Positions 12,531 through 28,884 of a stretch of 64,000 nt of DNA are shown in pieces (within the stretch, counting starts at the first letter, position 1; every line of letters starts with the position of its first letter). The stretch is from Brachybacterium phenoliresistens (GTDB lineage: Bacteria; Actinomycetota; Actinomycetes; Actinomycetales; Dermabacteraceae): contig NZ_KK069989.1 in the NCBI RefSeq assembly GCF_000576425.1, positions 310,001 through 374,000 of the forward strand. The letters run 5' to 3'. Under the pieces are notes generated by a model. It was not told the origin of the DNA. It did not search any database and saw only the letters and a list, made by a program, of their open reading frames with translations. The translations under genes and the position numbers were made by a program.

Positions 12531-14291
12531 TCACAAGGTGCGCGGCCAAACCTTCAAGGCGATCTCCAGCAACTCTTCCATTCGTTCGTTGGCCGCAACG
12601 TTGTCCCAAGTGCGTGTACGCAACTGCCTCTGTAGGATTGCGTCCTGACGGTTCGTCCAATTTAGAAGCTCTGGTGCCTTGTCGTAGAAATTGGGCGGAA
12701 GCGCGCTGTTGGTCTTCCCGGGCAGTAGCATCAGGTTCCCGAGCTTTCCGAGCCAGAAATTCTGCCGGCTATTCACCGAACGGCCGCCTTGAGGTTCTAT
12801 ATGCTCCAGGGTCATGTCTTGATTTCGAGGTAGCTTGGAATGTCCCCAGAATTCCTCGATCTTCTCGAGGGTACGGCGAACCCTGTGGACGTCGGCCGGC
12901 TTCTGGGCGAAATACGTCAGCCCTCGAAGGCCGTCTTTGAACTGAACGTCAGTTGGCATTAGGCGCACGGCGTCAGCCTTGAATGCCTCCAGTGCCCTTG
13001 TATATTCGGACGCGGACGACGCCGCATCCACCGCGTAGGCGGCGCGTCGATACGCGCGTCGGATGGTAGATGTGGAAGGGCGCTTCGAGATTGACCACCG
13101 GAACTGGAGCGCTTCTATTGATCGCAAGAAGTCTAGAAGAATCTTCTTGGCGATGGACTTATGTCGCGGATGGATGTAGGATCTCAATAATGCGAATAGG
13201 ATGTTCAAGGGAAGGTTTGATCCAGGCACAAGACAGCCGTATAGCGCGGAGTCAATTTCCTCGAACACGTCCTTTCTCCAACGATCGGGCGGGACAATGC
13301 GCTCCCAGTGCTTACCATTCGGCGATGCCAAGCAGTCGTCGAACTCATTGAAGATTTCGGCGGTCTGGTGGAACCTCCTAAGGAATTCCCGTGCTGCTCC
13401 TTCCTCGTCGTCGAATGATTGCAGATGGTGGTCGACTGAGCGGCGGATGCGAGTTACGGCAATAATTTCGTCATCTGGTTGCTGAGAGGTTGAGTTCCAG
13501 AAGTATCCGAGAAAGTCTTCCGTGCTAACCTTGGACCATCCCGTCGATTCAACCAAATTGACGCAAGTTGTCCAGACTAGCTCTTCGTCCCGGCCCGGTG
13601 TAGCCTCGATCGCTGATATGACCTGATTCTTTACTAAGTCGATCTGGCGAAGGCTTCGACCCCGGTCATTCAGTGTCTCGAAAATCCTAAAAGCGCTGTT
13701 CTTGTCGCCACCTCGTACATAGACCACGTTGGCTTGAAGGAATCGGTCACGAATGTAATCAATGGTCTGTGCGGGACTGTGCGGACTGTCTCGCATTTCG
13801 GCGTTCACCAGGTCAGACAGCAATGTGAAGGCCGAAAACTGTGCCCTCTCAGCATTGCTTTCCGGCTTCTTCTTGACGACTTGTTCATCGGGCGAAGACA
13901 GGATGCGGAGTTGAAGAAAGCCTGCTTCATTACGATATCTCAGACGAAAAGTGGTCTCGCCGGAGAGATCGCGTTGCTGGATGTACTCGTTAAGGCCCTG
14001 CGATCGACCATGTTCGCCTATCGACTCGTAGGCGTTCTTTATGGCTACGATTGCAATCAGGATGGTTGTTAGTCGCTGCTGTCCGTCGACAAGATCCCAT
14101 TGCTGCGGACCCGACGAGTGTACTACCATATTTCCGAGAAAGTGGCCACCAGCTGGGGCGGCTTTTAGGTCGTTCCACAAGTCCTGGATATTCTCCTCTT
14201 CCCAAGCATAGTCGCGCTGGTACCTGGGTATGATGTGGTCCCCGGTGCGAATGACTTCGGCAATGCTTCTTTGAGTTGCATCGAAATCCAT
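12531..14291 (-). CDS. DUF262/DUF1524 protein, GmrSD-like modification-dependent nuclease
   Basis: The 586-residue product joins an N-terminal DUF262 domain (DGQQR at 69-73, in the ParB/sulfiredoxin-like nucleotide-binding fold) to a C-terminal DUF1524 domain with His-Me/HNH-type residues (LEHIEPQ with His497; LGNLMLL with Asn519). This is the single-chain GmrSD arrangement. GmrSD enzymes are type IV systems that cut DNA with glucosylated hydroxymethylcytosine in an NTP-stimulated reaction; whether this one has that target is unknown. Its base composition is close to half AT, with codons such as ATA and CTA that are rare in neighbouring genes, which points to separate acquisition. It lies downstream of the methyltransferase on the same strand, with a 217-base gap (14292-14509) in which I see no gene. 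Confidence 0.88.
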   Translation of the reverse strand: MDFDATQRSIAEVIRTGDHIIPRYQRDYAWEEENIQDLWNDLKAAPAGGHFLGNMVVHSSGPQQWDLVDGQQRLTTILIAIVAIKNAYESIGEHGRSQGLNEYIQQRDLSGETTFRLRYRNEAGFLQLRILSSPDEQVVKKKPESNAERAQFSAFTLLSDLVNAEMRDSPHSPAQTIDYIRDRFLQANVVYVRGGDKNSAFRIFETLNDRGRSLRQIDLVKNQVISAIEATPGRDEELVWTTCVNLVESTGWSKVSTEDFLGYFWNSTSQQPDDEIIAVTRIRRSVDHHLQSFDDEEGAAREFLRRFHQTAEIFNEFDDCLASPNGKHWERIVPPDRWRKDVFEEIDSALYGCLVPGSNLPLNILFALLRSYIHPRHKSIAKKILLDFLRSIEALQFRWSISKRPSTSTIRRAYRRAAYAVDAASSASEYTRALEAFKADAVRLMPTDVQFKDGLRGLTYFAQKPADVHRVRRTLEKIEEFWGHSKLPRNQDMTLEHIEPQGGRSVNSRQNFWLGKLGNLMLLPGKTNSALPPNFYDKAPELLNWTNRQDAILQRQLRTRTWDNVAANERMEELLEIALKVWPRTL

Positions 14292-14509: not shown

Positions 14510-15901
14510 TCAGCCCGAGCGCGACCCGGTCAGTGAATTCGGTTCATCGAGCGTCGCGTGCACGGCCTGCCGTCCGCGGATGATCGAACCTCCGGGGCCG
14601 GCACGCACGCGGGTGCGGTCGGGACCCTGCTGCTCCAGCGGGATCTCGAGCTGATCGTCCGCGCGTGACGCGAGCATGCCGTCGGCCTCCTCCGCCTCGT
14701 ACGCACGGATCAGTCTGCCGACGTCGATGCTGGGTCTCGTCTCGGCCTCGTAGGTCTCCCCGTCCATCGTCTTCAGGATCGCGTCGATCACGACCTGGGC
14801 GCCTTCGGGAGGAACGGCCATGCCCACCTGGCGTCGGACGCTCGGCTGCGAACCGTAGAAGCGGAAGGAGTCGGGGAACGTCTGCAGGCGAGCTCGCTCC
14901 CGGTTCGTGAGGGCGCGAGGCTCATTCCAGTGGTACATGTGCGTACCTCCGCCTCCGGAGCCGGTCACGGTGTACGAGGGTTCGTCGGGGTCGAGCTTCC
15001 GGTAGATGTTGCTGAGGGTGGCCCCCTTGACGTTGAGCACGAGCGAGTCGTCGTCGAAGGTCGTGTTGAAGGCGTTCTTGCCGGGCTGGATCGCCTTGAG
15101 CCGCTCGACCACGGACCTCCTGTGCTTGATCGGCACGTTGTTGTAGGCAGAGGGGTCGATGGGCTCGTTCTCGAGGACGTCGCGCGCGGTCCGCTGCTGC
15201 CACTTCGCAGGCGTGGTCGGGAGCGGAACACGGAAGCCTCGGGGGAGAGATTCCCGGACGTCGCGCCGGATGCCGACGATGAGAATGCGGTGCCGACGCT
15301 GCGGCACCCCGTACTTCTCGAACTTGTAGAGGTGGGCGACGAGCTCGTACTCGAGGTCCTCATCGACCTCCTCGGCGTCCGGGCCGTAGTACGAGGTGAA
15401 GGACGGATCGGTGAGCGCGGCGGCGCCGGGTCGGCGCAAGGCGGAGAGGATCTTGCCGAATGCCCGCCCGCCGTTGGCTCGGGAGAGTCCTGAGACGTTC
15501 TCGGCCAGGAACCACTCCGGTCGGCGGAGCGCGAGCGCATGGACGCCATAGGTGTACAGCGCTCCGTAGTCGCCCTCGAGTCCGCGATGCTCCCCCACCG
15601 TGCTGAAGTCGTTGCATGGGAAGCCGAAGGCGAAAGCATCGAAAGCTGGGACCTTCCGCAGGTCGAAGCCGCGGACGTCGGCGGTGAAGACGGTCTCGTC
15701 CGTAGCGCCGTGGATGTTCTTCCGATAGGTCTCCGCGGTGTCGGGATGGTACTCGACTGCCCAGCCATGGCGGACCGTCGAGCACCGCCCCTCCTTGATC
15801 GCATCCCGGCTCGCGAGCTCAGCACCGAGCGCGATCCCGCCTGGACCGCTGAACATCTCGCCGAGGACGTAATGCGGCACCGTTCCACCCCTACCGATCA
15901 T
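14510..15901 (-). CDS. dcm: DNA cytosine-C5 methyltransferase
   Basis: The 463-residue product carries the ordered C5-methyltransferase motifs: FSGPGG (17-22, AdoMet binding), GFPCNDFS with the catalytic Cys96, ENV (134-136), QRRHRI (201-206), a target-recognition region, and the closing QVGMAVPP. It should convert cytosine to 5-methylcytosine in a specific DNA sequence; the target cannot be read from the protein. It is divergent from vsr, a classic pairing because Vsr repairs T:G mismatches left when 5-methylcytosine deaminates. It provides the modification arm of the restriction system transcribed the other way. Start at the ATG at 15901; a GTG at 15880 is also possible. Confidence 0.95.
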   Translation of the reverse strand: MIGRGGTVPHYVLGEMFSGPGGIALGAELASRDAIKEGRCSTVRHGWAVEYHPDTAETYRKNIHGATDETVFTADVRGFDLRKVPAFDAFAFGFPCNDFSTVGEHRGLEGDYGALYTYGVHALALRRPEWFLAENVSGLSRANGGRAFGKILSALRRPGAAALTDPSFTSYYGPDAEEVDEDLEYELVAHLYKFEKYGVPQRRHRILIVGIRRDVRESLPRGFRVPLPTTPAKWQQRTARDVLENEPIDPSAYNNVPIKHRRSVVERLKAIQPGKNAFNTTFDDDSLVLNVKGATLSNIYRKLDPDEPSYTVTGSGGGGTHMYHWNEPRALTNRERARLQTFPDSFRFYGSQPSVRRQVGMAVPPEGAQVVIDAILKTMDGETYEAETRPSIDVGRLIRAYEAEEADGMLASRADDQLEIPLEQQGPDRTRVRAGPGGSIIRGRQAVHATLDEPNSLTGSRSG

Positions 15902-16026
15902 CGAGCTCCGTCACTGCGCAGCCTACGCGGTCGTCCGCGTGGCGCGTGGGGCGATCCAGAGATCGCCTGTTGCAGCAGCTTACTCCGGGGCACCCCCTTC
16001 GCGGCGGATGCGCAGCGCCTAGTGGA

Positions 16027-16044
16027 CGGAGATCTGTATCTCCG
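16027..16044. promoter_or_regulatory. Perfect inverted repeat between dcm and vsr, candidate operator
   Basis: CGGAGAT (16027-16033), a four-base spacer and ATCTCCG (16038-16044) form a perfect palindrome in the 211-base divergent region between the methyltransferase and vsr. Restriction-modification systems often control this junction through a regulator or through the methyltransferase itself. No controller gene is seen here, so the binder is unknown. Confidence 0.4.
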
Positions 16045-16100
16045 CCTGCGGTGATGCCGCCTACCGGGAAGTCGAGGACCTCAGGGAGTAAGGTCTCGCC

Positions 16101-16106
16101 TACGCT
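16101..16106 (+). promoter_or_regulatory. -10 hexamer of a leaderless vsr promoter
   Basis: TACGCT at 16101-16106 lies exactly six bases before the vsr ATG at 16113, and no ribosome site precedes that ATG. This fits a leaderless transcript. No good -35 is visible, so the promoter may be weak or activator-dependent. Confidence 0.35.
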
Positions 16107-16112
16107 CTTCAC

Positions 16113-16532
16113 ATGGCCCTGCGACCCCCTCCGCCCAGCAGCGAGAACGCGCGCAGGACGATGCTCGCCAACCGCCGGCGGGACACCTCGATCGAGCTCG
16201 AGGTCCGACGGCGCCTCCACGCCGCCGGACTCCGGTATCGCGTGGACTTCCCCGCCGACGCATCCGACCGGCGCCGACGCGCGGACATCGTCTTCACGCG
16301 CGCGAGGGTCGCGATCTTCATCGACGGGTGCTTCTGGCACGGTTGCCCCGCGCACTACGTCGAACCGAAGAGCAACACCGACTACTGGCGGTCGAAGATC
16401 GCGCGGAACATGGAGCGCGACCTGGAGTCCACAGCCCGCCTCGAGCGTGCGGGATGGCGGGTCCTGCGGTTCTGGGAGCACGAGGACCCGGCGGAGGTGG
16501 CGGCGACGATCCTCGCGGTCATCCGTCCATGA
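16113..16532 (+). CDS. vsr: Very short patch repair endonuclease (Vsr)
   Basis: The 139-residue product has the Vsr signature: DTSIELEVRRRLHAAGLRYR, ADIVF with the metal-binding Asp58, and FIDGCFWHGCP (69-79) with His76, followed by NTDYWRSKIARNMERD. Vsr nicks DNA 5' of the T in T:G mismatches made by deamination of 5-methylcytosine, so the neighbouring methyltransferase is its natural partner. Length is normal for the family. It is the first gene of the rightward defence operon; the next gene starts 81 bases later. Confidence 0.95.
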   Translation: MALRPPPPSSENARRTMLANRRRDTSIELEVRRRLHAAGLRYRVDFPADASDRRRRADIVFTRARVAIFIDGCFWHGCPAHYVEPKSNTDYWRSKIARNMERDLESTARLERAGWRVLRFWEHEDPAEVAATILAVIRP

Positions 16533-16613
16533 TCTCGGGTCGTTCATCGGTTGTCCGCGCGGCCCGATAACCTGCTCCTGACAGCGATGTTCACAGCGAT
16601 CAGGGGTACTGGC

Positions 16614-19346
16614 ATGGCAGGTCAGCAGCTGGACAGCGCGCTCTTCGAGCAGGCGCTCGGGGCGTACGAGGGGATGATGCAGGCTCGCTCGGGGGAGACG
16701 AACCAGAGCGCGGCGCACCGCGACTGCGTCGCGCTCGTGGATCGGATGTTCCCCGGTTTCCGCACGACGTACGAGGCGCGCGAGGAGGAGCGGAAGAAGT
16801 CCGTCGAACAGATCATCATCGACCGGCGGATCCTCACCGACGATGGAGCGTTCACGCCCTGGTACGGCGGTTCCAAGGTCATGCTGGGGGAGTGGCCCGA
16901 CTACAGGCGCCGGCTGGAGAGCGGTGGTCTGCCGGCATCGGCCATCGAGTCGATCGACCAGTCGACGGAGATGATCCTCTCGCGCTGCGCGAACCCGAAG
17001 CAGCCGGGCGATCGGCGCAAGGGCCTGGTGATCGGCTACGTCCAGTCGGGGAAGACCGCGAACTTCACCGGCCTGATCGCGAAGGCGGTCGACGAGGGGT
17101 ACAGGATCATCATCGTCCTCGCCGGCATGTACACCAATCTCCGCGTGCAGACCCAGCTGCGTCTGCAGAAGGATCTCGGCATCGACACCGTCCGGGAGCG
17201 CGCAGGCATCGGCTGGACGCTCCTGACCAACGCCACGGCCGACGTCGGCAAGAGCATCCCGCCGGGGTTCCTGTCCAACACGGCGAACGTCGCCGTGCTC
17301 GTCGTCAAGAAGCACGAGATGCGACTGGCGAACGTCGCGCGCTTCCTGCGCTCGATCCCCGAGGACATCCGCAACCGCCGCGGCGTCCTGATCATCGACG
17401 ACGAGTCGGACCAGGCGACGCCCAACACTCTGGCTGCCAAGGACCTCGTGTCCACCATCAACCAGAGGATCCGCGACATCTGGGCCGCCGTCCCGACCGG
17501 GAGCTACGTGGCCTACACCGCGACGCCCTTCGCCAACGTCTTCATCGATCCGGCCGACGCGGGAGACCTGTACCCGGACGACTTCATCACGGTCCTCCCG
17601 AAGCCGGACTCCTACATGGGCTCGGAGCTCTTCTTCGACGTCCGGCAGGATGCGGACGCTGACGAGGACGAGGTCATCCATCAGCTCGCCCACGAGGTGC
17701 CCGAGCATGAGGCCGAGCTCTTCACTCCTCGCCCGAAGGACATCGACTCCTTCGATCCGCAGGTCACGCCGTCGCTGGAGGCGGCCGTGCGCTGGTTCGT
17801 CCTCGCGACGGCCATCCGCGAGCTGCGCACCGGCTCGGTGAAGCACTCCTCCATGCTGGTGCACACCTCCCAGCTCATCCGCGCCCACCAGCGGACGAAG
17901 GAGGTCGTGGCCGACCTCATCGGGGCCCTCAATTTCAACCTCGAGAATGAAGAGGACGAGTTCCGCAGCCTGTACGAGGCCGAGATCGACCGCGCGGCCT
18001 CGCTGCGGGACGGAGAGCGGGTCCCGAGCTGGACGGAGACGTGGGAGAGGGTGCACAGCGTCCTCCCGCGGGTCGTGGTCAAGATCGACAACGGGCAGTC
18101 CGACGACCGACTCGTCTACACCGATGAGCAGCCCCAGACCGTGATCGCCATCGGCGGCGGCACGCTGTCCCGAGGGCTCACCCTCGAGGGCCTCGTCGTC
18201 TCGTACTTCCTGCGCTCGAGCAACGCCTACGACACCCTCCTGCAGATGGGGCGCTGGTTCGGGTTCCGTCCCCGCTATCGCGATCTGGTCCGGGTCTGGA
18301 TGGGCCCGGGCCTGCTGGAGGACTACGCCCATCTCGCACGCGTCGAGAAGCAGCTGCGCGACGAGGTCGCCGTGATGGAGGGGGAGAACCGCACGCCGCG
18401 CGATTTCGCCGTCAAGGTACAGAGCCATCCCGGTCGCCTCGAGATCACGAGCAGCAACAAGATGACGGCGGCCCAGCTGGTCCGCGCAGGGCTGGGCGGG
18501 ACCCGGCGTCAGACGATCTACCTGGACCGCTCGCCCGGCGGCATCGCCGACGGCCAGCGCGCCGCACGCCGGCTCGTCGAGCGCGCTCTCGCGCATGGCG
18601 GTCCCGTCCTCCAGCGCAGCGAGCGCAGCGCCAAGCCGTTCCCGTCGCTCCTCATCCCGGGGCTTCCAAACGAGGACCTCGTCGCGTTTCTCCGCGACTA
18701 CTGGGTGGCGCCGTCCGACAAGTGGCTCCAGCCGGACGGCATGGCCGACTGGCTGCAGCGCCACGGCACCGACGCGAGCTGGAACCTCGTCCTGCTCTCC
18801 GGGCCCGGCGGCGGGAGATCCGGATTCGAGCTCGCCGATGGCATCCGGATCGGCACCTCGAGCCGTGCGCCTCTCAAGCCCGAATACTGGTCGTCGTCGC
18901 GGCTCGGCCAGGGGGTCCCGCAGGGCGCGGACATCGTCAACATCCGAGCCCTCATGTCGAGCGCGGACCAGATGCTCGACCTGCGGATCCTCGCCGACCA
19001 GGATCTCCTCTCGCAGGAGGACGTCGCGATCGTCGACGGCGTGGACGTGGACGATGTGCCGAGCGTGAAGACGGCGCGCTCCCTAGTGCGGCCCGAGGAG
19101 GGGATGATCCTGCTCTATGCGGTGGATCGGGATTCTCGGCCGCGAGGCGAGACCTCCACGAGGACCCGCGAGCCCATGAACGCGAGCGGAGAGCTGATCG
19201 GGCTCGGCGTCGTCTTCCCGCACGTCGAGGCGGAGGACTACGGCGAGTACTGGGCCGTCCAGCTCGCGAACCAGGTCGTGGACGATGCCACGGCGACCCA
19301 GGCTCCCGACAACGAGGGCGACTACGTCTTGGAGGACGCACGATGA
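16614..19346 (+). CDS. Z1-domain SF2 helicase-like ATPase
   Basis: The 910-residue product has P-loop motifs in SF2 order: GYVQSGKT (141-148, Walker A), LIIDDES (about 259-265, Walker B), a TATP motif III, then GGGTLSRGLTLEGL and QMGRWFGFR, which fit motifs V and VI. The C-terminal part corresponds to the Z1 domain, known from restriction-like operons. It is probably a DNA translocase that powers the nuclease next door (inference). I chose the ATG at 16614, preceded by AGGGGT, over upstream in-frame starts. The stop overlaps the next ATG (ATGA), so translation is coupled to the PD-(D/E)XK gene. Confidence 0.88.
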   Translation: MAGQQLDSALFEQALGAYEGMMQARSGETNQSAAHRDCVALVDRMFPGFRTTYEAREEERKKSVEQIIIDRRILTDDGAFTPWYGGSKVMLGEWPDYRRRLESGGLPASAIESIDQSTEMILSRCANPKQPGDRRKGLVIGYVQSGKTANFTGLIAKAVDEGYRIIIVLAGMYTNLRVQTQLRLQKDLGIDTVRERAGIGWTLLTNATADVGKSIPPGFLSNTANVAVLVVKKHEMRLANVARFLRSIPEDIRNRRGVLIIDDESDQATPNTLAAKDLVSTINQRIRDIWAAVPTGSYVAYTATPFANVFIDPADAGDLYPDDFITVLPKPDSYMGSELFFDVRQDADADEDEVIHQLAHEVPEHEAELFTPRPKDIDSFDPQVTPSLEAAVRWFVLATAIRELRTGSVKHSSMLVHTSQLIRAHQRTKEVVADLIGALNFNLENEEDEFRSLYEAEIDRAASLRDGERVPSWTETWERVHSVLPRVVVKIDNGQSDDRLVYTDEQPQTVIAIGGGTLSRGLTLEGLVVSYFLRSSNAYDTLLQMGRWFGFRPRYRDLVRVWMGPGLLEDYAHLARVEKQLRDEVAVMEGENRTPRDFAVKVQSHPGRLEITSSNKMTAAQLVRAGLGGTRRQTIYLDRSPGGIADGQRAARRLVERALAHGGPVLQRSERSAKPFPSLLIPGLPNEDLVAFLRDYWVAPSDKWLQPDGMADWLQRHGTDASWNLVLLSGPGGGRSGFELADGIRIGTSSRAPLKPEYWSSSRLGQGVPQGADIVNIRALMSSADQMLDLRILADQDLLSQEDVAIVDGVDVDDVPSVKTARSLVRPEEGMILLYAVDRDSRPRGETSTRTREPMNASGELIGLGVVFPHVEAEDYGEYWAVQLANQVVDDATATQAPDNEGDYVLEDAR

Positions 19347-20320
19347 CGCACGGCCATTCTCGGGCCGAGGAGGCGTACGAGCTCCTGCGCGGACGTCACG
19401 CAGAGCCCGGCGGGGGAGTCCGGGCCCTCATCGGACCTCCCGGCCGGCTCGAGGACGCGATCCTCGTGAAGGACCACGTGGGCATGATCCACCTGCTCGC
19501 CGCCCTCCCCGCGGGCAGGGAGATCTTCGATGTGCCGCTCGGTCATACCCTGCGTGCGACGTGGGTCGGGACGCGCAGCGCCGACGGGCACACGACGAGC
19601 CTCGACGTCGCGTGCACGGATCCGCGCCTGCGCCTCACGTTCCTCTCGCTCATCGGAGAGATGCTCGACCGCGCCGATGAGACCGGCAGGCCATGCATCG
19701 ACGAGCTGACCGGCGTGCTCGACTCCTGGCGGTCCGCGCTCGCCCGCGCGAAGCGCGAGCTGGACCGGAGCCGCGCTGTCGGACTCTTCGGCGAGCTGAC
19801 GATCCTCGAGCAGCTCGCCCGGAAGGACCAGGTGCGCGCCCTTGCAGCATGGCGAGGGCGCGAAGGGCACCGCCACGACTTCGCTCGCACGAACGCCCTG
19901 GAGGTCAAGACGTTCTCCTCGACCGGGTCCCCGTCTGTGCAGATCCATGGGCTCCTCCAACTCGACCCGCCGCCCGCAGGCGTGCTTCATCTGGTGGCGT
20001 TCCGCGTCGTGGAGACCGACTCCGGATCCTCCCTCGCGGAGCTCGTCGAGCGGATCGTCGAACAGGGAGTCTCCCGGGCCGATATCGCCGACTGCCTCGG
20101 TGAGGACGCCCCTGCCCTCGAGGGCGGGCGTGATCGGCGGTTCACGATCGAGGAGACCCGTCTGCATGAGGTAGGCGAGGATTTCCCGGGGCTGCGCGCC
20201 TCGCGGCTCGACGAGACGGCGCTGCGCGGCGTCGACGACCTGACCTATTCGCTGAACCTCGATGCCTGCCCCGGCGGCATCGATCCCCGGCAGCTCGACC
20301 GGATCCTCGAGGAGCTCTGA
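19343..20320 (+). CDS. PD-(D/E)XK nuclease-family protein (DUF4420 type)
   Basis: The 325-residue product has the DUF4420/PD-(D/E)XK layout: GLFGELTIL, then HDF with Asp179 and LEVK with Glu187 and Lys189, in the D-x(n)-ExK spacing of the nuclease fold. It is likely the DNA-cutting subunit of the system. It overlaps the Z1 gene by four bases and ends eight bases before the GHKL gene, which argues for a complex made of all three. No target-recognition domain is apparent in it, so specificity may come from another subunit. Confidence 0.85.
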   Translation: MTHGHSRAEEAYELLRGRHAEPGGGVRALIGPPGRLEDAILVKDHVGMIHLLAALPAGREIFDVPLGHTLRATWVGTRSADGHTTSLDVACTDPRLRLTFLSLIGEMLDRADETGRPCIDELTGVLDSWRSALARAKRELDRSRAVGLFGELTILEQLARKDQVRALAAWRGREGHRHDFARTNALEVKTFSSTGSPSVQIHGLLQLDPPPAGVLHLVAFRVVETDSGSSLAELVERIVEQGVSRADIADCLGEDAPALEGGRDRRFTIEETRLHEVGEDFPGLRASRLDETALRGVDDLTYSLNLDACPGGIDPRQLDRILEEL

Positions 20321-20328
20321 CATCGCAC

Positions 20329-22248
20329 GTGCCCATCACCTCACTCCAGTGGTTCCCCAAGCGGTTCTCCCCCGGAGACATGGATGCCTCCGGCGGGGAC
20401 AGGCTGCTCGGGAAGACGGAGCTCTCCCGCCTCGCGGTGCTCATCCGGGAGATGGCGCAGAACAGCTGGGACGCCCGCTTGCCGGAACGCCAGCCCGTCT
20501 TCGGCGTCTCCCTGCGCCGCACGAACTTCCGGTACCGCGACAGCCTCGCCGAGCTCATCAGGGAGGGTCGGCTCGGAGATCTCGGAGGCCTGGTGCGCAA
20601 TGCAGGGTTCCGCGTGCTCGAGATCTACGACCGCGGCACCGCCGGCCTCGACGGCCCGGCTGACCTCTCGCCCGTCGGGAAGGGCGCCTCCGCTCGGTTC
20701 CAGGACCTCATCCTGAAGTTCGGAGTCCCGCACAACAACGGGTCGACGGGCGGCACCTACGGTTTCGGGAAGACGGCGGCCTTCGCGTACAGCGGCATCG
20801 GCACGGTCGTCTACTGGACCCGATGCAGGAACTCGGAGGGCCACCTCGAGGACCGCTTCATCGTCTCCGCCTTCAGCGACTCGTACGAGGACGCCGGCGT
20901 GCAGTACACCGGCCGTCACTGGTGGGGCAGGCTCACCGAAGAGGGCGACTCGATCCTGCCCATCGTGGGCGAGGAAGCGACGGAGCTCGGCGAACGATTC
21001 TTCGAGACCGGGTTCGCGCCAGGGGAGACCGGGACGTCGATGCTGATCCTCGACCCCCTCGTCACCGACCCCGATGACATGGAGGACGCCGAGCGGGAGC
21101 CGCTGGATCGCCACCGCAGCGATGCCGGCGAGGTGGAGCGGGACTTCGCGCGCCGCGCGCGGCACGTCATCAGGGCCAATCTGTGGCCGAAGATGATCGC
21201 CGAGACACCCGCCTCCGGCGTCCCCATGGAGATACGCCTGCACGTGAATGGCGAGCCCATCGATCTGGGATCGCCGGAGGCAGCGGTGCTCGCCCACTGG
21301 GGAGCCGGGCTGAATGCGATCCGCCGCTTCCGCGCCGGCGGCCGGAATGAGTCAGCGTCCCCGACGAACGTGCCGATCACCGTTCTGGAGATCAAGCGCT
21401 ACGACAAGGTCATCGGGCACCTCGCCCTGGTCCGACGCATACCCAACCTCGAGATCATCCAGGGGCATGTCGAGGACGACGACCTGGATCCGTCCCGGAC
21501 GGACGCCCGGCTGCAGCGGATCGCGCTGATGCGCGGCCAGGCGGAGCTCGTCGTCACCACTGTGGACTGGGTGGGGCGGGAGCCGTTCGAGGGGATGGAC
21601 TGGCTGGCGGTCTACAAATCCGCCGACGAGTTCGACCAGATGTACGCCGACGCCGAGCCTCCGGCTCACGACAGCTGGGTCACCGACGGCAGCAGCAGCG
21701 AAGCGGCGAAGATCGTGCGACACACCAGGACCCGCGTGAAGCAGCTGATCACGAGGGAGCTCTACCCCGAGACGACGAACGAGGAGGCTTCTGCCCCGCG
21801 GATCGCCATGGCGACAGGGGCGCTCTCCCGTCGGCTCGGCGCGATCCTCCCCGCTGCGGCGCCGACGATGCCTGCCGTCCGAGAAGGGGGCGGCGCCGGC
21901 AGGAGACGAGCGACGACGTGCGCACGTTGGGTCGTCGAGGCCGAGCCCCCTCGTCTGATCAGCACAGACGCCGCCGGGCGCCAGAGGCAGGAGGTCGAGT
22001 TCCAACTCAGCGGCGGGACCGAGCCGGTCGGGACGGTTCGACTGAGCGTCAGTCTGCTCGGTGACGAGGGGCTCCACGAGCTGGTGCCGCCGGAGGAGCT
22101 CGACATCGAATGGGGCGAGGGCCTCGCAGGCAACGGCGCCTACGCCCACGTGCCGGCCGGTTCGACCGGCGTCGTCCGCTTCTCCGGTGCGCCTCGCCGT
22201 GCGATGCGCGTCGAGCTCACCGCAGGAGGCATCGATGGCCGTTCTTGA
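20329..22248 (+). CDS. MORC/MutL-like GHKL ATPase of a restriction-type system
   Basis: The 639-residue product has the GHKL nucleotide-binding motifs: REMAQNSWDA (Glu41, Asn45, Asp48), EIYDRG (Asp101, Gly103) and GGTYGFGKTAAF (about 141-152, with Gly145 and Gly147). An S5-like domain should follow, then a C-terminal stretch of ~130 residues rich in beta strands (VRLSVSLLGDEG; VVRFSGAPRRAM). GHKL ATPases such as MutL, gyrase B and MORC act as ATP-driven clamps, so this is probably the DNA-sensing or clamp subunit. Starts with GTG at 20329; the 3' end overlaps the next gene by 14 bases. Confidence 0.87.
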   Translation: MPITSLQWFPKRFSPGDMDASGGDRLLGKTELSRLAVLIREMAQNSWDARLPERQPVFGVSLRRTNFRYRDSLAELIREGRLGDLGGLVRNAGFRVLEIYDRGTAGLDGPADLSPVGKGASARFQDLILKFGVPHNNGSTGGTYGFGKTAAFAYSGIGTVVYWTRCRNSEGHLEDRFIVSAFSDSYEDAGVQYTGRHWWGRLTEEGDSILPIVGEEATELGERFFETGFAPGETGTSMLILDPLVTDPDDMEDAEREPLDRHRSDAGEVERDFARRARHVIRANLWPKMIAETPASGVPMEIRLHVNGEPIDLGSPEAAVLAHWGAGLNAIRRFRAGGRNESASPTNVPITVLEIKRYDKVIGHLALVRRIPNLEIIQGHVEDDDLDPSRTDARLQRIALMRGQAELVVTTVDWVGREPFEGMDWLAVYKSADEFDQMYADAEPPAHDSWVTDGSSSEAAKIVRHTRTRVKQLITRELYPETTNEEASAPRIAMATGALSRRLGAILPAAAPTMPAVREGGGAGRRRATTCARWVVEAEPPRLISTDAAGRQRQEVEFQLSGGTEPVGTVRLSVSLLGDEGLHELVPPEELDIEWGEGLAGNGAYAHVPAGSTGVVRFSGAPRRAMRVELTAGGIDGRS

Positions 22249-23140
22249 GTCGCGGCCCTTCCTCGCACCCGCGAGCCGTGCTGTCCACGCGACCATCGAG
22301 ATCATCGAGCCCGCCGGGACCTCGTTCGAGGACATCGGCGACACGTGGGAGCCGGGGCAGCGCATCGTCCTGCGCTGCCGAGCAGAGCTCGCACCAGACT
22401 TCTGGGAGCAGACTCGGATCGATCCGAGCGAACCCGTGCTCCTGGTCGGCATTGCCACCTGCCTGCCAGCCCGGGCACGTTGGCGCTCCTCGGCCCGATT
22501 CGAGCAGATCGACGGAGCATGGCGCGCCGACACCCTGGTCGAGGTGGACGGATCCGTCGTCGCGGTCGAGGTCCTGGCCGACGCATGGGTCGTCGGTCCG
22601 GGCCGGACGGGGAGCGAGGATCCGTCGCTCGCCATCCATGAAGGGGCGAAGCTCTGGCAGTTGACCAAGCCGAGCAAGCTGGAGCTGGAGAGCGACGGGG
22701 CCGCCTTCCCCACCACGGCGATATCGTTCGCTCAGACGGGGCGGCGCGATGTCCCCTGGACCGTGGAGCTGGCTCCAGAGGCGGAGCCGTTCTGGAAGAT
22801 CAGCTCCTCAGTCCGGCTCTACATCAACACGGACTCGGATCTCGCACCTGCCATCCTCGACGGCAGCGCCTCCGAGGACCTGTTCGCGCTGATGCAGTGC
22901 GACATCCACCTCGCCGTGATGCACAGCCTGGCGAAGTGGCGAGATTCCATCCCCCCGGCGCAGATGATGGCTCTCGCCGAGGAGGATGTCGAATCGCTCG
23001 CATCGTTCGGAGCCAATCTGGCCCAGAGCCTCGGTCTTCCTCTCAGCGAGTGCCTCCGCCTCGCACGGGAGGAGCCCCTGGCCCTCTCGGCCCGGTCTCG
23101 GGAGGCCCTCTCGTTCGGAAGGAGCTCGTCGGCATCGTGA
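22235..23140 (+). CDS. Unrecognised protein of the Z1/GHKL defence operon
   Basis: This is a 301-residue soluble protein that I cannot assign to a family. The first ~200 residues read as alternating beta strands (VHATIEIIEPAGTSFEDIGD; VLLVGIATCLPA), and the last ~100 as helices (FALMQCDIHLAVMHSLAKW; ASFGANLAQSLGLPLSE). It has no signal peptide, membrane span or nuclease motif. It overlaps the GHKL gene by 14 bases and the next gene by four, so it is almost certainly an obligate member of the system. Target recognition or bridging between ATPase and nuclease is a possible role (speculative). Confidence 0.75.
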   Translation: MAVLESRPFLAPASRAVHATIEIIEPAGTSFEDIGDTWEPGQRIVLRCRAELAPDFWEQTRIDPSEPVLLVGIATCLPARARWRSSARFEQIDGAWRADTLVEVDGSVVAVEVLADAWVVGPGRTGSEDPSLAIHEGAKLWQLTKPSKLELESDGAAFPTTAISFAQTGRRDVPWTVELAPEAEPFWKISSSVRLYINTDSDLAPAILDGSASEDLFALMQCDIHLAVMHSLAKWRDSIPPAQMMALAEEDVESLASFGANLAQSLGLPLSECLRLAREEPLALSARSREALSFGRSSSAS

Positions 23141-23886
23141 CTCGCATCTATCCCCAGTTCGACCGGGACGTCGCGTTCGAGGAGCTGGCTGCCCTCGAGA
23201 ACCTGCTGCGGGCAGGCATGGCACCGCGGCCGCTCGCGGACGGCATGCTCCATCCCGCTACGAAGTTCAACGGTTTCGGCGGAGTTCCGGTCGACGTGCC
23301 GCGACTGCGCGCGCTGCGCTCCGCTCTCGAGTCGGCTCTGAGCGGCGCCGGTGCACAAGGACGCGACGCCGATCGACGCTTCGATGTCGCCGTCGGCCAG
23401 GTGCTCGCGCACTGGTTCGAGGAGGATGGGCGCGGGCAGGCGTCCAATCCGGAGATCTGGCCGTATCTGACGATCTACGTGCTGCCGGACCTCGCTATCA
23501 GGCGATTCGGCCCGGACAAGTCCGGCAGGCTGCCGCGCGACAGGTACCTCTCGGGGCGCCGCAACGTCTTCTACCGGGCCTACCTGCGATCGTGGATCCT
23601 CGGTGATCTGCTCGATGACCCGGACCTGCCGCTTTACGAAGACGATCTAGTCGGACTGGTGGACCGCAATTTGTCGGCGGACCACAGGATCGCTCGGATG
23701 ATCGGGGAGCAGATCCGGTCAATTCAATCCGGCGAGGCACGTCGAGAGGGAGTGAGAGGAGGTCTTAAATCGGTGCAGTACGAGTTGCGAGTCAGTGACC
23801 TGGCCTCACTTACGGACGAATCCGCCAAACGGGTCATAGCGGAATGTTTCGACGGAGGAGTGAAAAGACAGGGCGCAACTTTCTAA
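23137..23886 (+). CDS. DUF6339-like protein, last gene of the core operon
   Basis: This 249-residue protein starts at a GTG overlapping the previous stop (GTGA). The beginning MTRIYPQF and the central YLTIYVLPDLAIRRFG and RNVFYRAYLRSWIL remind me of DUF6339, but that match is from memory and tentative. It is mostly helical and soluble. Composition changes inside the gene: up to about 23.63 kb it is GC-rich like the core, and after that clearly AT-richer, like the DUF262 gene that follows. This suggests a recombination joint in or near its 3' third. Confidence 0.65.
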   Translation: MTRIYPQFDRDVAFEELAALENLLRAGMAPRPLADGMLHPATKFNGFGGVPVDVPRLRALRSALESALSGAGAQGRDADRRFDVAVGQVLAHWFEEDGRGQASNPEIWPYLTIYVLPDLAIRRFGPDKSGRLPRDRYLSGRRNVFYRAYLRSWILGDLLDDPDLPLYEDDLVGLVDRNLSADHRIARMIGEQIRSIQSGEARREGVRGGLKSVQYELRVSDLASLTDESAKRVIAECFDGGVKRQGATF

Positions 23887-24062: not shown

Positions 24063-25880
24063 ATGGCAGAGAAGGCAAACCAGCTCGGTGTCAAATCTAA
24101 GACAATCGAATCTGTGTACCGTGAGTTCACCGCAAGTGCCTACGGGGTCAATCGGCGGTACCAGCGCAAGCTGGTCTGGACGGTAGAAGAAAAGGAGCGA
24201 CTGATTGATTCGATTATAAATCAGTACCCTTTGCCTCAGTTCCTTGTGGCGGAGGATGTGACATCCCGCGACTATCAGTTCGAGATAATTGATGGCATGC
24301 AACGAATGAACGCAATCGTTGCGTTCATCGAAAACGAATACCCGCTGCGCGGGGAGTACTTCGACCTCGAATCGCTAGCGATAACCAAGGAGAAGAAGGA
24401 TGAAGGCACGCTTGTGCAACGCAAGCCCATCCTTTCGCGGGCGGAGAGTGTCAAGATCGCAACTTACGAAATCGCACAGTCCGTATACCGAACCGACCAC
24501 TCTTCGAGCATCGAAGAAGTCTTTAGGCGAATAAACTCGTCGGGGCAAAAGCTGTCTAGCCAGGATCTTAGGCAGGCCGGATCGACTTCTCCGATTGCGG
24601 ATATTGTACGAGAAATCGCCAGTCGAATTCGTGGGGACCACTCGACGTCCGACGTAGTCGATCTCGCAGGCATGAAGGCCCTTTCAATCGCGAGCAACAA
24701 CAACGAATACGGAATCAAGCCGGAGGAAATCTTTTGGGTTAGGCAAGCTGTCCTCAATCGTGCAAACGTGCGAACCTCTGGAGATGAACAGCTGATACTT
24801 GACATTGTCGCGGACATGCTATTTGATCCAGTTCCGAGCACCGGAACTTCCACCCGAAATGCCCTATTTGGAGTCGAGTCCTTTGATGGCAGGAGTGCGG
24901 ATGCCCGCTTCTCCGCTCTCCTGAAAGACCCTGCCTGGCACTCTGGCAAGAAACGGACCCTTGTCGACGACTTCATGCAGACTTTCGATAAGGTCCTTGA
25001 AATTGTTGCCGAGTTCGGCGAGGATTCAAGGTTCCCAAAGGTAATCGGGCAAAAGGGCAACAACCCGGTGCCTAGATACTTTGAAGTCTTCTTCGTGGCA
25101 GTTTGGCGATTGTATTCCGTTGAACGGCTCGAGCTGACGAATCCTGCGGCTGCGGCAGATCAGCTTAGGCTCCACCCCGCATTCAAATCTATGCCGGGCG
25201 GGGGAGGCGAGTGGCCGTCTGCCGACAAGGAAGCGATCATTAAGAAGCTTTGCAGAAGCCTTAAGGTGGCTTTTGATGCACCACGACTTGCTGAAAACGC
25301 ACGGCCTCGAACGAGCGTTATGTCCAATAGCGAGTTTGCATCGACAGTTTCGGAAGTGCTGCTGGAAAGTTCGGCGTACGAGATGAAGCAAGGTCTATTG
25401 AGGCTCGAGTCCGGGGCTTCGGTGATCACCTCGACGCTGTTCGACCGAATCCTTCGCACGGTTACTGCGATTTCTAATTCGTTCCCGAAGCAGGGCGGTC
25501 ATGTGTTAATTGGTGTCGCTGACAGCGATTCGGATGCCGACCGTGTTTACGAGATTTACGGCGTCAGTCCGATAATCTACCGCACGCTCCGCATCGTCGG
25601 GGTTGAAAGGGAAGCGGACGCAATGGGGGTTAGCTTCGACGAGTACTGGGATGCCGTCATTCGCAAGATCTCAATGAGCTCTAAGCTTGACTCGTCCTAT
25701 GCAAAGCGCGTCGCTAAGAGCGCTCGGGTCGCTGTTCATGAGGGTAGGAAGATGCTTGTAATTGACGCTCCGACCACGCGTGATCCGGTTGCTTTTGACG
25801 GGAAATACTTCGAGCGCATTGGTACGTCGACTGAGGAAGTCAAAGACCTCATCGCTTTCGGAAGGGGATTCGACTTGTGA
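24063..25880 (+). CDS. DUF262 protein with a C-terminal Schlafen/AlbA_2-like domain
   Basis: The 605-residue product starts with a DUF262 domain (IIDGMQRMNAIVAF, DGMQR at 77-81). Instead of the usual DUF1524 nuclease end, the last ~140 residues resemble the AlbA_2 nucleic-acid-binding domain of Schlafen-like proteins: a GGHVLIGVADSD strand at about 478-489 and the closing DAPTTRDPVAFDGKYFERIG. I infer an NTP-binding or NTP-hydrolysing module joined to a DNA/RNA-binding module, with no recognised nuclease. AT-rich compared with neighbours, with ATA, TTA and AGG codons, so acquired separately from the core. An AAGGAG site precedes the ATG. The 176 bases upstream (23887-24062) presumably carry its promoter, which I could not pin down. 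Confidence 0.82.
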   Translation: MAEKANQLGVKSKTIESVYREFTASAYGVNRRYQRKLVWTVEEKERLIDSIINQYPLPQFLVAEDVTSRDYQFEIIDGMQRMNAIVAFIENEYPLRGEYFDLESLAITKEKKDEGTLVQRKPILSRAESVKIATYEIAQSVYRTDHSSSIEEVFRRINSSGQKLSSQDLRQAGSTSPIADIVREIASRIRGDHSTSDVVDLAGMKALSIASNNNEYGIKPEEIFWVRQAVLNRANVRTSGDEQLILDIVADMLFDPVPSTGTSTRNALFGVESFDGRSADARFSALLKDPAWHSGKKRTLVDDFMQTFDKVLEIVAEFGEDSRFPKVIGQKGNNPVPRYFEVFFVAVWRLYSVERLELTNPAAAADQLRLHPAFKSMPGGGGEWPSADKEAIIKKLCRSLKVAFDAPRLAENARPRTSVMSNSEFASTVSEVLLESSAYEMKQGLLRLESGASVITSTLFDRILRTVTAISNSFPKQGGHVLIGVADSDSDADRVYEIYGVSPIIYRTLRIVGVEREADAMGVSFDEYWDAVIRKISMSSKLDSSYAKRVAKSARVAVHEGRKMLVIDAPTTRDPVAFDGKYFERIGTSTEEVKDLIAFGRGFDL

Positions 25881-26970: not shown

Positions 26971-27132
26971 GGGATCGACAGTACTGCTTCTGCAGGTCAC
27001 GCGGGCCCGATGGCCGGCGAACTCCCGAATCTCCCGCCACGTCCTCCTGGGATCGCTCGAGCAGGCAACGCGCTCGGAGCCGTCTTCACGCCATCGGGCA
27101 CAACCGCGCCGGGCTCCACATACCCTTCCCCC

Positions 27133-28884
27133 ATGCCCACCACCCCCGAGAACTTCCAGGTCGACCTGCGCGGGATCGTCGAGATCCTGTCGCACCACCT
27201 GTACTCGAGCCCGCGCGTGTACGTGCGCGAGCTGATCCAGAACGCGCGGGATGCCGTGGTCGCGCGCGGCGAGGACGTGCCGCCCATCGAGCTGGTCGTC
27301 GATCCGGCCGCGGGCTCGCTCACCGTGCGCGACCACGGCATCGGCCTCACCGAGGCGGATGCCCGCAGCCTGCTGTCCACCATCGGCGCCTCCAGCAAGC
27401 GCGAGGAGCTCGCGGCGGCACGGCGGGAGTTCCTGGGCCAGTTCGGGATCGGCCTGCTGTCCTGCTTCCTGGTGGTGGACCAGATCGAGGTGGTCTCCCG
27501 CAGCGCCCGCGACCCGCAGGCGCCGACGATGCGCTGGATCGGCTACGGCGACGGCACCTTCACCGTCTCGCCCGCGGAGCAGCCGCTCGAGGAGCCGGGC
27601 ACCCTGGTGCGGGTGCATGCGCGGCCGGACGAGGCCGAATGGGTGGGGACCGACCGCGTGTTCCGCCTCGCCCGCGAGTTCGCGAGCCTGCTGGCCGTGC
27701 CGATCACCTTCGCCGTCGCCGGCGATCCCCGCCCCGCGGTGCGGGTGAGCGGAGATCCCGCCCCGTGGGACCTGCCCGGTAAGGCGGCGGCCGCCTGGTG
27801 CGAGGACGCCTTCGGCTTCGCGCCGCTGGCGAGCATCCCGCTGGACCTGCCGATGCTCGGCATCCGCGGCGTCACGTTCGTGACCGGCGAGGCGACGCCC
27901 GGCCGGGGCCGCGCGGGGGACCGGGTGTTCTCCCACGGCATGTCCGTCGCCTCCGACAACACCCAGCTGGTGCCGGAGTGGGTCAGCTTCGCGCGCGTCG
28001 CGATCGAGGCGGGGTCGCTCAGCCTCACCGCCTCCCGCGAGAGCCTGCACGAGTCCGCGGCCCTCGCCACGGCGCGCGAGGAGCTCGGCCACCAGGTCCG
28101 GGCGGGCATCGAGCGCCTCGCCGCCGGGGACCCGGAGGTCTTCGCACGCTTCGTCGACGTGCACGGGCAGAGCCTGCTCGCCCTCGCCGTCGCGCACCCG
28201 GAGATGCTGGAGTTCGTCGCCCGCCACCTGACGTGGGAGACCAGCTCCGGGCCGCTGCGTCTGGTGGAGATGCCGGCCAGGATCACGTTCACCACGCAGG
28301 ACCGGGACTTCAGCAGCTACGCCCCGATCGTCCAGGCGCAGGGCGACCTGCTGGTCAACGGGGCCTACACCCACGGCGCCGCCATGCTGCGCGCGTACGA
28401 CCAGGCGCAGTCGCGGCTCACCGCGCGCGAGTTCGAGCTGACGCGCCTGCTGGAGAACCTCCCGGAGCCGCGCGGCGAGGACGCGGCCCTCGCCGAGCGG
28501 ATCGGCACCGTGGCGCGGGGCGTGCTCGACGCGCACGGCGTCGCGGTGGACGTGCGCGCCTTCCGCCCGGTGTCCCAGCTGGTGCTGCACGTGCCCGGGC
28601 GCGCCGCGGGCTTCGTGTTCGAGGAGGTCGAGGACGATCCGTGGGCCGACATGCTCGGCGGCGGGGCCCCGCGCGAGCAGGAGGACCCCCGGCCCACCCT
28701 CGTGCTCAACCTCCGCGCCGAGGCCGTGCGGGCCCTCGGCGGGACGCTCGCCCCCGCCACCCGCGACGACGCGATCCGCGCGCTGCACCTGCTGAGCCTG
28801 CTGCAGGCCGGCATCCGCCTGCAGGCCGAGGAGCAGGCGCTCCTCGCGGGCGCGTTGCAGACGCTGCTCCTCGCGGCATCCTGA
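27133..28884 (+). CDS. HSP90-family chaperone
   Basis: The 583-residue product has the HSP90 GHKL ATPase signatures: RELIQNARDA (32-41), DHGIGL (67-72) and GQFGIGLLSCF (102-112), then a middle domain and a C-terminal dimerisation region. It is a little shorter than E. coli HtpG and diverges strongly after the ATPase domain, as do the actinobacterial HSP90-family proteins coupled to a repeat protein. A TACCCT hexamer lies exactly six bases before the ATG, suggesting a leaderless transcript. The partner gene follows 40 bases later. Confidence 0.88.
   Translation: MPTTPENFQVDLRGIVEILSHHLYSSPRVYVRELIQNARDAVVARGEDVPPIELVVDPAAGSLTVRDHGIGLTEADARSLLSTIGASSKREELAAARREFLGQFGIGLLSCFLVVDQIEVVSRSARDPQAPTMRWIGYGDGTFTVSPAEQPLEEPGTLVRVHARPDEAEWVGTDRVFRLAREFASLLAVPITFAVAGDPRPAVRVSGDPAPWDLPGKAAAAWCEDAFGFAPLASIPLDLPMLGIRGVTFVTGEATPGRGRAGDRVFSHGMSVASDNTQLVPEWVSFARVAIEAGSLSLTASRESLHESAALATAREELGHQVRAGIERLAAGDPEVFARFVDVHGQSLLALAVAHPEMLEFVARHLTWETSSGPLRLVEMPARITFTTQDRDFSSYAPIVQAQGDLLVNGAYTHGAAMLRAYDQAQSRLTAREFELTRLLENLPEPRGEDAALAERIGTVARGVLDAHGVAVDVRAFRPVSQLVLHVPGRAAGFVFEEVEDDPWADMLGGGAPREQEDPRPTLVLNLRAEAVRALGGTLAPATRDDAIRALHLLSLLQAGIRLQAEEQALLAGALQTLLLAAS

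Follow-up and report, generated by a model that had tools for sequence, protein, structure and literature searches.

The closest described counterpart of the locus analysed here is the third operon type of Iyer, Abhiman and Aravind (2008), which combines a Z1 helicase, a novel nuclease of the restriction endonuclease (RE) fold, a MORC or paraMORC protein, the cytosine methyltransferase Dcm and the mismatch endonuclease Vsr (PMC2292703). Dcm, Vsr, Z1, the RE-fold nuclease and paraMORC were thereby already proposed as restriction partners. Our locus lies on a stretch of 64,000 nucleotides from Brachybacterium phenoliresistens (contig NZ_KK069989.1, positions 310,001 to 374,000), referred to as the window, and consists of seven genes at 14510-23886 (Table 1), among them two previously unassigned ones labelled gp6 and gp7. 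On the basis of sequence comparison the block is a real, conserved restriction-modification cluster and a variant of a known, little characterised kind. We consider it probable that it encodes an ATP-driven restriction core which relies for target recognition on an exchangeable module of the Dcm type, to which gp7 links it.

All marks of the third operon type were found in the window: the Z1 protein carries the DThhQXuRhFG motif (as DTLLQMGRWFG), the nuclease the E-D-ExK residues of the RE fold, and Dcm and Vsr are linked to them. Five of the seven genes, these two motifs, a GHKL protein and its paraMORC2-type ExxxH are common to both, whereas gp6, gp7 with its family DUF6339, the inactive (“dead”) Dcm copies described below and the loose coupling of Dcm are absent from the accessible text of that work (PMC2292703). 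The initial annotation had termed the system MORC/MutL-type. The GHKL ATPase stands, but a placement under MORC proper was rejected because the MORC signature of the S5 domain (GhXhhpXXRhl) is missing: it is absent from the window protein and five aligned relatives (0/6), matches as a regular expression 3 of 98 open reading frames of the family and was recovered in 4 of 5 GHKL proteins of MZA-like loci used as controls. Instead, the mark of paraMORC2 given by Iyer et al. (PMC2292703), a strongly conserved ExxxH within the C-terminal portion of S5, appears as EPPAH at residue 443, with E and H kept in 97 of 98 sequences and its location in S5 assigned by the sequence motif alone. We assign the protein to the paraMORC2 type and not to MORC in the strict sense. 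CglI and NgoAVII are similar in pairing a Z1-domain SF2 motor with a separate nuclease and a 5-methylcytosine (5mC) methylase, but their nuclease is of the PLD-B3 type with its own recognition domain and their three genes include no GHKL protein, gp6 or gp7 (PMC4267653). A scan of ten window proteins detected neither a PLD nor a B3 domain. The PADLOC candidate PDC-M33 shares with the window a GHKL protein matching PDC-M33A, and the DUF6339 protein of locus L144, a member of the second locus type introduced below, matches PDC-M33C (E 8.8e-8); unlike these, window gp6 and gp7 have no PADLOC match, and gp7 of L036 likewise has none.

A scan of contigs from 84,980 species with the GHKL alignment yielded 362 relatives, the best 80 of which constitute our set of loci. 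Their titles mark them as actinobacterial; they were selected as the best matches to a single GHKL query and are not independent of each other. Four genomes are shared with the loci from genomes of the host's class, which leaves the counts over 80 unaffected. The genes for Z1, the DUF4420 nuclease, GHKL, gp6 and gp7 follow each other in this order on one strand in 74 of the 80 loci, and gp6 and gp7 are present after GHKL in all 80. Dcm was found in 77 and Vsr in 64 loci, some of those without Vsr being cut by contig ends; an unfused Dcm occurs in 76, at a median gap of 884 bp to the core and within 1500 bp in 68. Pairwise distances among Z1, nuclease, GHKL, gp6 and gp7 (82, 77, 83, 83 and 83 sequences) correlate at 0.96-0.98. 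The correlation with the core amounts to 0.54-0.56 for Vsr and 0.24-0.28 for Dcm, the latter calculated with the nearest Dcm per locus, which mis-pairs loci with several Dcms such as L098/L102. As judged from these distances the five core genes are inherited as one unit with one shared history, and gp6 and gp7 are constant subunits of the core, which is new here. Gene order and co-inheritance support the initial reading as a restriction system that combines a Z1 motor with an RE-fold nuclease and a GHKL ATPase, and also the presence of two ATPases, Z1 and GHKL, in one co-inherited unit; the supposed single block of seven genes is instead a five-gene core to which Dcm and Vsr are loosely attached.

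The recurrent gene order and the matches of the window proteins to profiles built without them (E 2.4e-83 for GHKL, 1.1e-13 for gp6 and 2.7e-22 for gp7 against 44 homologues) argue against a chance arrangement. Catalytic motifs claimed for the assigned subunits proved to be intact and to lie in columns with little or no variation. Walker A GKT and DDE.D of Z1 are kept in 107/107 homologues, E, D, ExK and Q of the nuclease in 98/98, and N, D, GG and K of GHKL in 93-96 of 98, counted over homologues in the loci read with a few sequences from genomes sampled twice. The window Dcm retains the motif IV cysteine (PC), ENV and QxRxR. A sequence search of the PDB gave no relative for GHKL or Z1. DUF4420 was found in 21 of 296 genomes of the host's class, its own included. 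At the 22 places examined (one in each of these genomes and a second in G101) Z1 always adjoins DUF4420, and the GHKL type described here occurs at 6, each time followed by gp6 and gp7 (6/6). Among the sixteen Z1/DUF4420 loci that lack gp6 and gp7, seven supplied ten neighbour proteins for scanning; these comprised five HATPase_c_3 GHKL proteins, AIPR (L027, L032), MTaX1 (L042), NERD plus kinase (L041) and GmrSD_N (L044), and these varied neighbours suggest that the Z1/DUF4420 pair is a platform with several partners. The NERD-domain gene of L041 (6277-8280), which also has a protein kinase domain, adjoins DUF4420; a corresponding gene in L148 (1406-3139), its kinase domain below cutoff, is located upstream of Z1. 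In L076 (same genome as L147) and L079, Z1, GHKL, gp6 and gp7 occur without an adjacent DUF4420 gene, and in L076 a TerD gene adjoins Z1.

The exchange of Dcm was estimated by taking the best-matching live Dcm pair for each pair of loci. Divergence of GHKL and of this Dcm correlates with r 0.26 over 75 loci and r 0.13 over the 45 loci without a dead Dcm. Among the latter, 27 of 46 pairs with GHKL proteins less than 30% divergent have Dcms that are more than 50% divergent; L060 and L069, for example, differ by 14% in GHKL and by 71% in Dcm. By this measure the Dcm partner is often exchanged while the core stays constant, and this makes one ask what gives the cutter its target specificity. A segment scan of 35 swapped versus 25 unswapped pairs (GHKL less than 35% divergent) revealed no stretch of a core protein that jumps with Dcm as a recognition domain would. 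The largest differences, 0.14, 0.13 and 0.10, fell in gp7, in a linker region of GHKL and close to the C-terminus of Z1, respectively; overall, the swapped pairs are slightly more divergent (0.26 vs 0.23). Within gp7, alignment columns 40-100 differ most (identity over columns 60-100 of 0.56 in swapped vs 0.69 in unswapped pairs) and possibly represent a Dcm-facing surface, or noise.

In 27 of the 80 loci gp7 runs in one frame into a Dcm-like domain. The motif IV Cys is replaced by Arg in all 27 fusions and also in L034, which belongs to the same genome as L131. Unfused dead Dcms were found in five further loci of the 80 and in five loci of the second type; fused or unfused, a dead copy is present in 32 of the 80. 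Six sequences shorter than 250 amino acids and two gapped at motif IV at contig ends were left out of the Dcm counts. Of the 38 dead sequences, in which L034 and L131 are counted separately, 37 have R at motif IV and one has S; each of them has lost the second motif VIII Arg and kept the two glycines of motif I and the Glu of motif VI (38/38); the 110 live Dcm sequences keep both motif VIII Arg residues. In 30 of the 32 loci with a dead copy, a usable live Dcm is present as well; the two exceptions are L086, with an intact but short partial live Dcm, and L123, which ends at the contig edge. Catalytic residues are lost, with a conserved replacement, while the rest of the signature is intact, which speaks for a non-catalytic task that has been retained. 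Other C-terminal additions of more than 100 amino acids were found in eight gp7 proteins; among five of these scanned, three are DUF3320-like (one over cutoff), one resembles HTH_3 (below cutoff) and one contains nothing beyond DUF6339. Given the fusions to dead Dcm and the other extensions, gp7 is taken to couple the core to a DNA-reading part; for the window system we infer this link from the relatives, since gp7 of the window carries no such extension. In L131 (12861-14702) the gp7-fused dead Dcm domain scored best with the PADLOC DruM2 models (E 2.2e-97), a likeness which may make Druantia worth checking for inactive cytosine methylases.

Of the two subunits initially called uncharacterised, gp6 is still without a known family (0 Pfam matches for the window copy, 0 NCBIfam matches for 43 homologues), while gp7 can be placed near DUF6339, and the window GHKL protein and a DUF6339 relative match PDC-M33. 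Five of six members of the gp7 family match PF19866 (DUF6339) at E up to 1 (best 3.6e-15); the window gp7 itself gave nothing at E 0.1, and no PF19866 match was obtained in its genome. Judged by these family matches, gp7 is related to DUF6339. The gp7 profile was built from gp7 domains alone, as whole open reading frames drew in Dcm via the fusions. The gp6 profile matches 9 of the 296 class genomes, 8 of them solidly and all 8 together with Z1, GHKL and gp7; the weak fragmentary match in G146 (E 4.8e-4), with no other system genes within the surrounding 20 kb, was taken as chance. Plain tblastn with gp6 over 345 class genomes detected one distant relative besides the own genome, and neither gp6 nor gp7 was found on plasmids. 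DUF6339 occurs in 13 of the 296 genomes with a GHKL gene alongside in 13/13 and Z1 in 5/13. The concern, expressed in the initial annotation, that homologues of the two genes lie mostly away from the Z1/GHKL pair is therefore partly justified for gp7 but not borne out by the solid matches of gp6 (8/8 together).

A second type of locus, L139-L146 (8 loci), contains GHKL, DUF6339 and Dcm without a detectable Z1 and has a dead Dcm copy in five of eight cases. The gene at the gp6 position, read in six of the eight, has a profile likeness to gp6 with a probability of 83% (E 8.6e-6). Two giant proteins of this type were scanned and display C-terminal SF2 helicase domains and a weak below-cutoff sacsin match; the one of L144 matches PADLOC TmtA (E 3.7e-44). 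Taken together, these loci make GHKL, gp6 and gp7 look like a module working with more than one motor. Structure prediction for gp7 gave a confident all-helical model (predicted local distance difference test, pLDDT, 91.5; predicted template modelling score, pTM, 0.86), for which Foldseek retrieved nothing better than E 0.94. The VIA rows for gp7 (Z up to 6.5, mostly residues 164-249) look like common helical arrangements and were discarded, and three PDB sequence matches at E 0.5-0.8 were regarded as chance. The gp6 model (pLDDT 86, pTM 0.59) consists of an N-terminal immunoglobulin (Ig)-like sandwich and a helical C-terminus. Its best Foldseek match has E 4.8e-3, and residues 5-153 retrieved many unrelated Ig-like rows (best Z 7.6, root mean square deviation 3.0, 107 residues aligned); the comparison covered the helical C-terminus only as part of the whole model. 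By sequence, gp6 has no relative in the PDB. DUF6339 is named in no paper of the literature searched, which lies mostly outside subscription journals, and the accessible parts of the same literature mention neither gp6 nor dead Dcms in Z1 systems, although an inactive methylase domain, specific for adenine, has been described for DndH (PMC10853773).

Consistent with these comparisons we propose the following scenario. Dcm would mark self DNA by 5mC, and Vsr would repair the T:G mismatches arising from deamination of 5mC. By analogy with the CglI Z1 helicase, Z1 might serve as the DNA motor; the DUF4420 protein would do the cutting, and the paraMORC2 protein might be a clamp powered by ATP, holding DNA or forming it into loops and licensing cleavage. 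The putative scaffold gp6 is encoded between the clamp and gp7, which would connect the core with the part that reads DNA. The assembled complex would translocate along DNA and cut it where unmethylated, presumably in defence. The core itself seems to be without a recognition specificity of its own, and we infer that it borrows this specificity from an exchangeable Dcm-type module, which may be the live Dcm in single-Dcm loci such as the window and the dead copy, often fused to gp7, elsewhere. BREX PglX and Type I restriction-modification, which use adenine methylases and other motors, offer an analogy only, in that restriction specificity is supplied by the modification module. Closer precedents support a motor-plus-clamp cutting machine guarded by 5mC. 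The CglI Z1 motor hydrolyses ATP only when complexed with its nuclease on unmethylated target DNA, and translocation before cutting was proposed (PMC4267653, PMC5737866); VcSduA joins a GHKL domain to a PD-(D/E)XK nuclease and needs both activities for phage defence (PMC12137116); and MORC-type proteins were proposed by Iyer et al. to loop DNA between recognition and cleavage sites (PMC2292703). A more detailed version, in which a multi-ATPase core without specificity reads its target from a docked cytosine methyltransferase via gp7/DUF6339 and in which, in 32 of 80 loci, a dedicated dead reader (motif IV Cys to Arg, motif I glycines kept) binds the site without being able to methylate it while its live sister protects the host, is put forward only tentatively.

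Several observations weigh against the main proposal. Where dead and live Dcms occur together (30 loci), the live one tracks the core (r 0.84; 19 of 200 close pairs more than 50% different), and the swapped pairs of the segment scan come from only 18 loci. The window has neither a dead Dcm nor a gp7 extension, so that the connection of gp7 with recognition rests on relatives. In 8 of the 13 genomes with DUF6339 no Z1 accompanies it, and five of the 80 loci have no adjacent DUF4420 gene (the remaining locus outside the common order is a 5 kb contig beginning inside GHKL). Neither Foldseek nor VIA gave a fold match of gp6 or gp7 that points to a function. Finally, a methylation-independent core would equally explain the exchange of Dcm. 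Dcm and Vsr would then be loosely attached neighbours, a protective or regulatory methylase and a repair nuclease, and the core would defend regardless of sequence or methylation, for instance by sensing DNA structure, ends or phage replication and then cleaving or breaking down DNA. Such an arrangement would fit the near absence of linkage between Dcm and core in the 45 loci without dead Dcm, the three of 80 loci without Dcm in the sampled DNA (one a 5 kb contig) and the lack of a core segment behaving as a recognition domain. However, Dcm accompanies the core in nearly all loci at a short distance, a Dcm-like domain is fused to gp7 in about a third of them, and the window Dcm is the only one found in its genome, and we regard this explanation as unlikely.

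Clearly less probable still is a divergent MZA anti-phage system with the same Z1/DUF4420 core, in which gp6 and gp7 replace AIPR and paraMORC2 replaces MORC. The Z1 protein is indeed MzaC-like and the DUF4420 protein MzaD-like, and L027 and L032 pair the same Z1/DUF4420 with a HATPase_c_3 GHKL and AIPR. Their scores of 347 bits (cutoff 1500) and 58 bits (cutoff 420), however, stay far under the equivalog cutoffs, and neither AIPR, which we take to belong to the MZA operon, nor a HATPase_c_3/MORC-type GHKL was matched among the ten window proteins scanned, gp6 and gp7 being found instead; the same library detects AIPR beside Z1/DUF4420 in L027 and L032. MZA membership was rejected on these grounds; the system may nevertheless work like MZA. 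A role in very-short-patch or mismatch repair instead of restriction, for which a MutL-like GHKL, Vsr and a helicase would be the cast known from MutL-linked repair (PMC2292703), is highly improbable in view of the patchy spread (gp6 solidly in 8 of 296 class genomes), the restriction-type neighbours and the 16 of 80 loci, some truncated by contig ends, in which Vsr was not seen.

GHKL restriction systems have been predicted since 2008. As the core remains constant while the methylase changes, this family allows one to ask how clamp, motor and nuclease find their target and where specificity lives, and the naturally occurring fusion of gp7 with a methylase that has lost its activity suggests a surface for contact with a partner. 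If true, our proposal would provide the first role suggested for DUF6339 and a bacterial counterpart of the eukaryotic GHKL/MORC proteins working in concert with DNA methylation.

Table 1. Genes of the restriction-modification block, with positions in the window and the evidence for their assignment.
Gene or product	Position	Strand	Evidence
Dcm-type cytosine-5 DNA methyltransferase	14510..15901	-	PF00145 E 2.1e-57; catalytic motifs intact
Vsr-type mismatch endonuclease	16113..16532	+	NCBIfam vsr 128.7 bits, cutoff 97.85
Z1-domain SF2 helicase/translocase	16587..19346	+	PF10593 E 4.6e-67; MzaC-like, 347 bits (equivalog cutoff 1500)
PD-(D/E)XK nuclease, DUF4420	19343..20320	+	PF14390 E 5.1e-36; taken as 'NRE' of Iyer 2008
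GHKL ATPase, assigned to paraMORC2 type, GTG start	20329..22248	+	GHKL motifs, EPPxH; PADLOC PDC-M33A E 8.1e-14, residues 91-165 only
gp6	22235..23140	+	Predicted Ig-like sandwich and helical C-terminal part; no known family
gp7, GTG start	23137..23886	+	Predicted all-helical; DUF6339-related

The original placement of the seven genes is confirmed, including strands, overlaps and gaps. Vsr is divergent from dcm with 211 bp between them, the Z1 and nuclease genes overlap by 4 bases, GHKL and gp6 by 14 and gp6 and gp7 by 4, and a gap of 8 bases separates the nuclease from GHKL. The start of the Z1 gene is ambiguous (16551, 16587 or 16614; end 19346). Pfam recognised DNA_methylase, Vsr, Z1 and DUF4420 in the block when the ten window proteins were scanned, and at E 0.1 it gave no match for the window GHKL protein, gp6 or gp7. 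The single Dcm of the window is intact, and a dead copy is lacking. Across the genome assembly of 4.19 Mb this Dcm is the sole PF00145 gene found, detected as two pieces of it, and the window Vsr is the only Vsr found.

The block has a GC content of 66-70%, compared with about 73% in the outer flanks and about 53% in the bordering DUF262 genes. A comparison with empty sites recovered the right flank alone, in one relative. The DUF262 (GmrSD_N) genes flank the block at 12531-14291 (-) and 24063-25880 (+), one with GmrSD_C and the other with AlbA_2, and are followed by a Mrr-type restriction endonuclease gene from 25921 to about 26960 (-), which matches the PADLOC candidate PDC-S02 (E 4.6e-129). 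The two DUF262 genes and the Mrr gene characterize the region as a restriction island. An HSP90-like protein, read from the sequence at 27010-28884 (+), was matched in 3 of 38 genomes of the genus, its own included, and because of this rarity is probably part of the accessory region.

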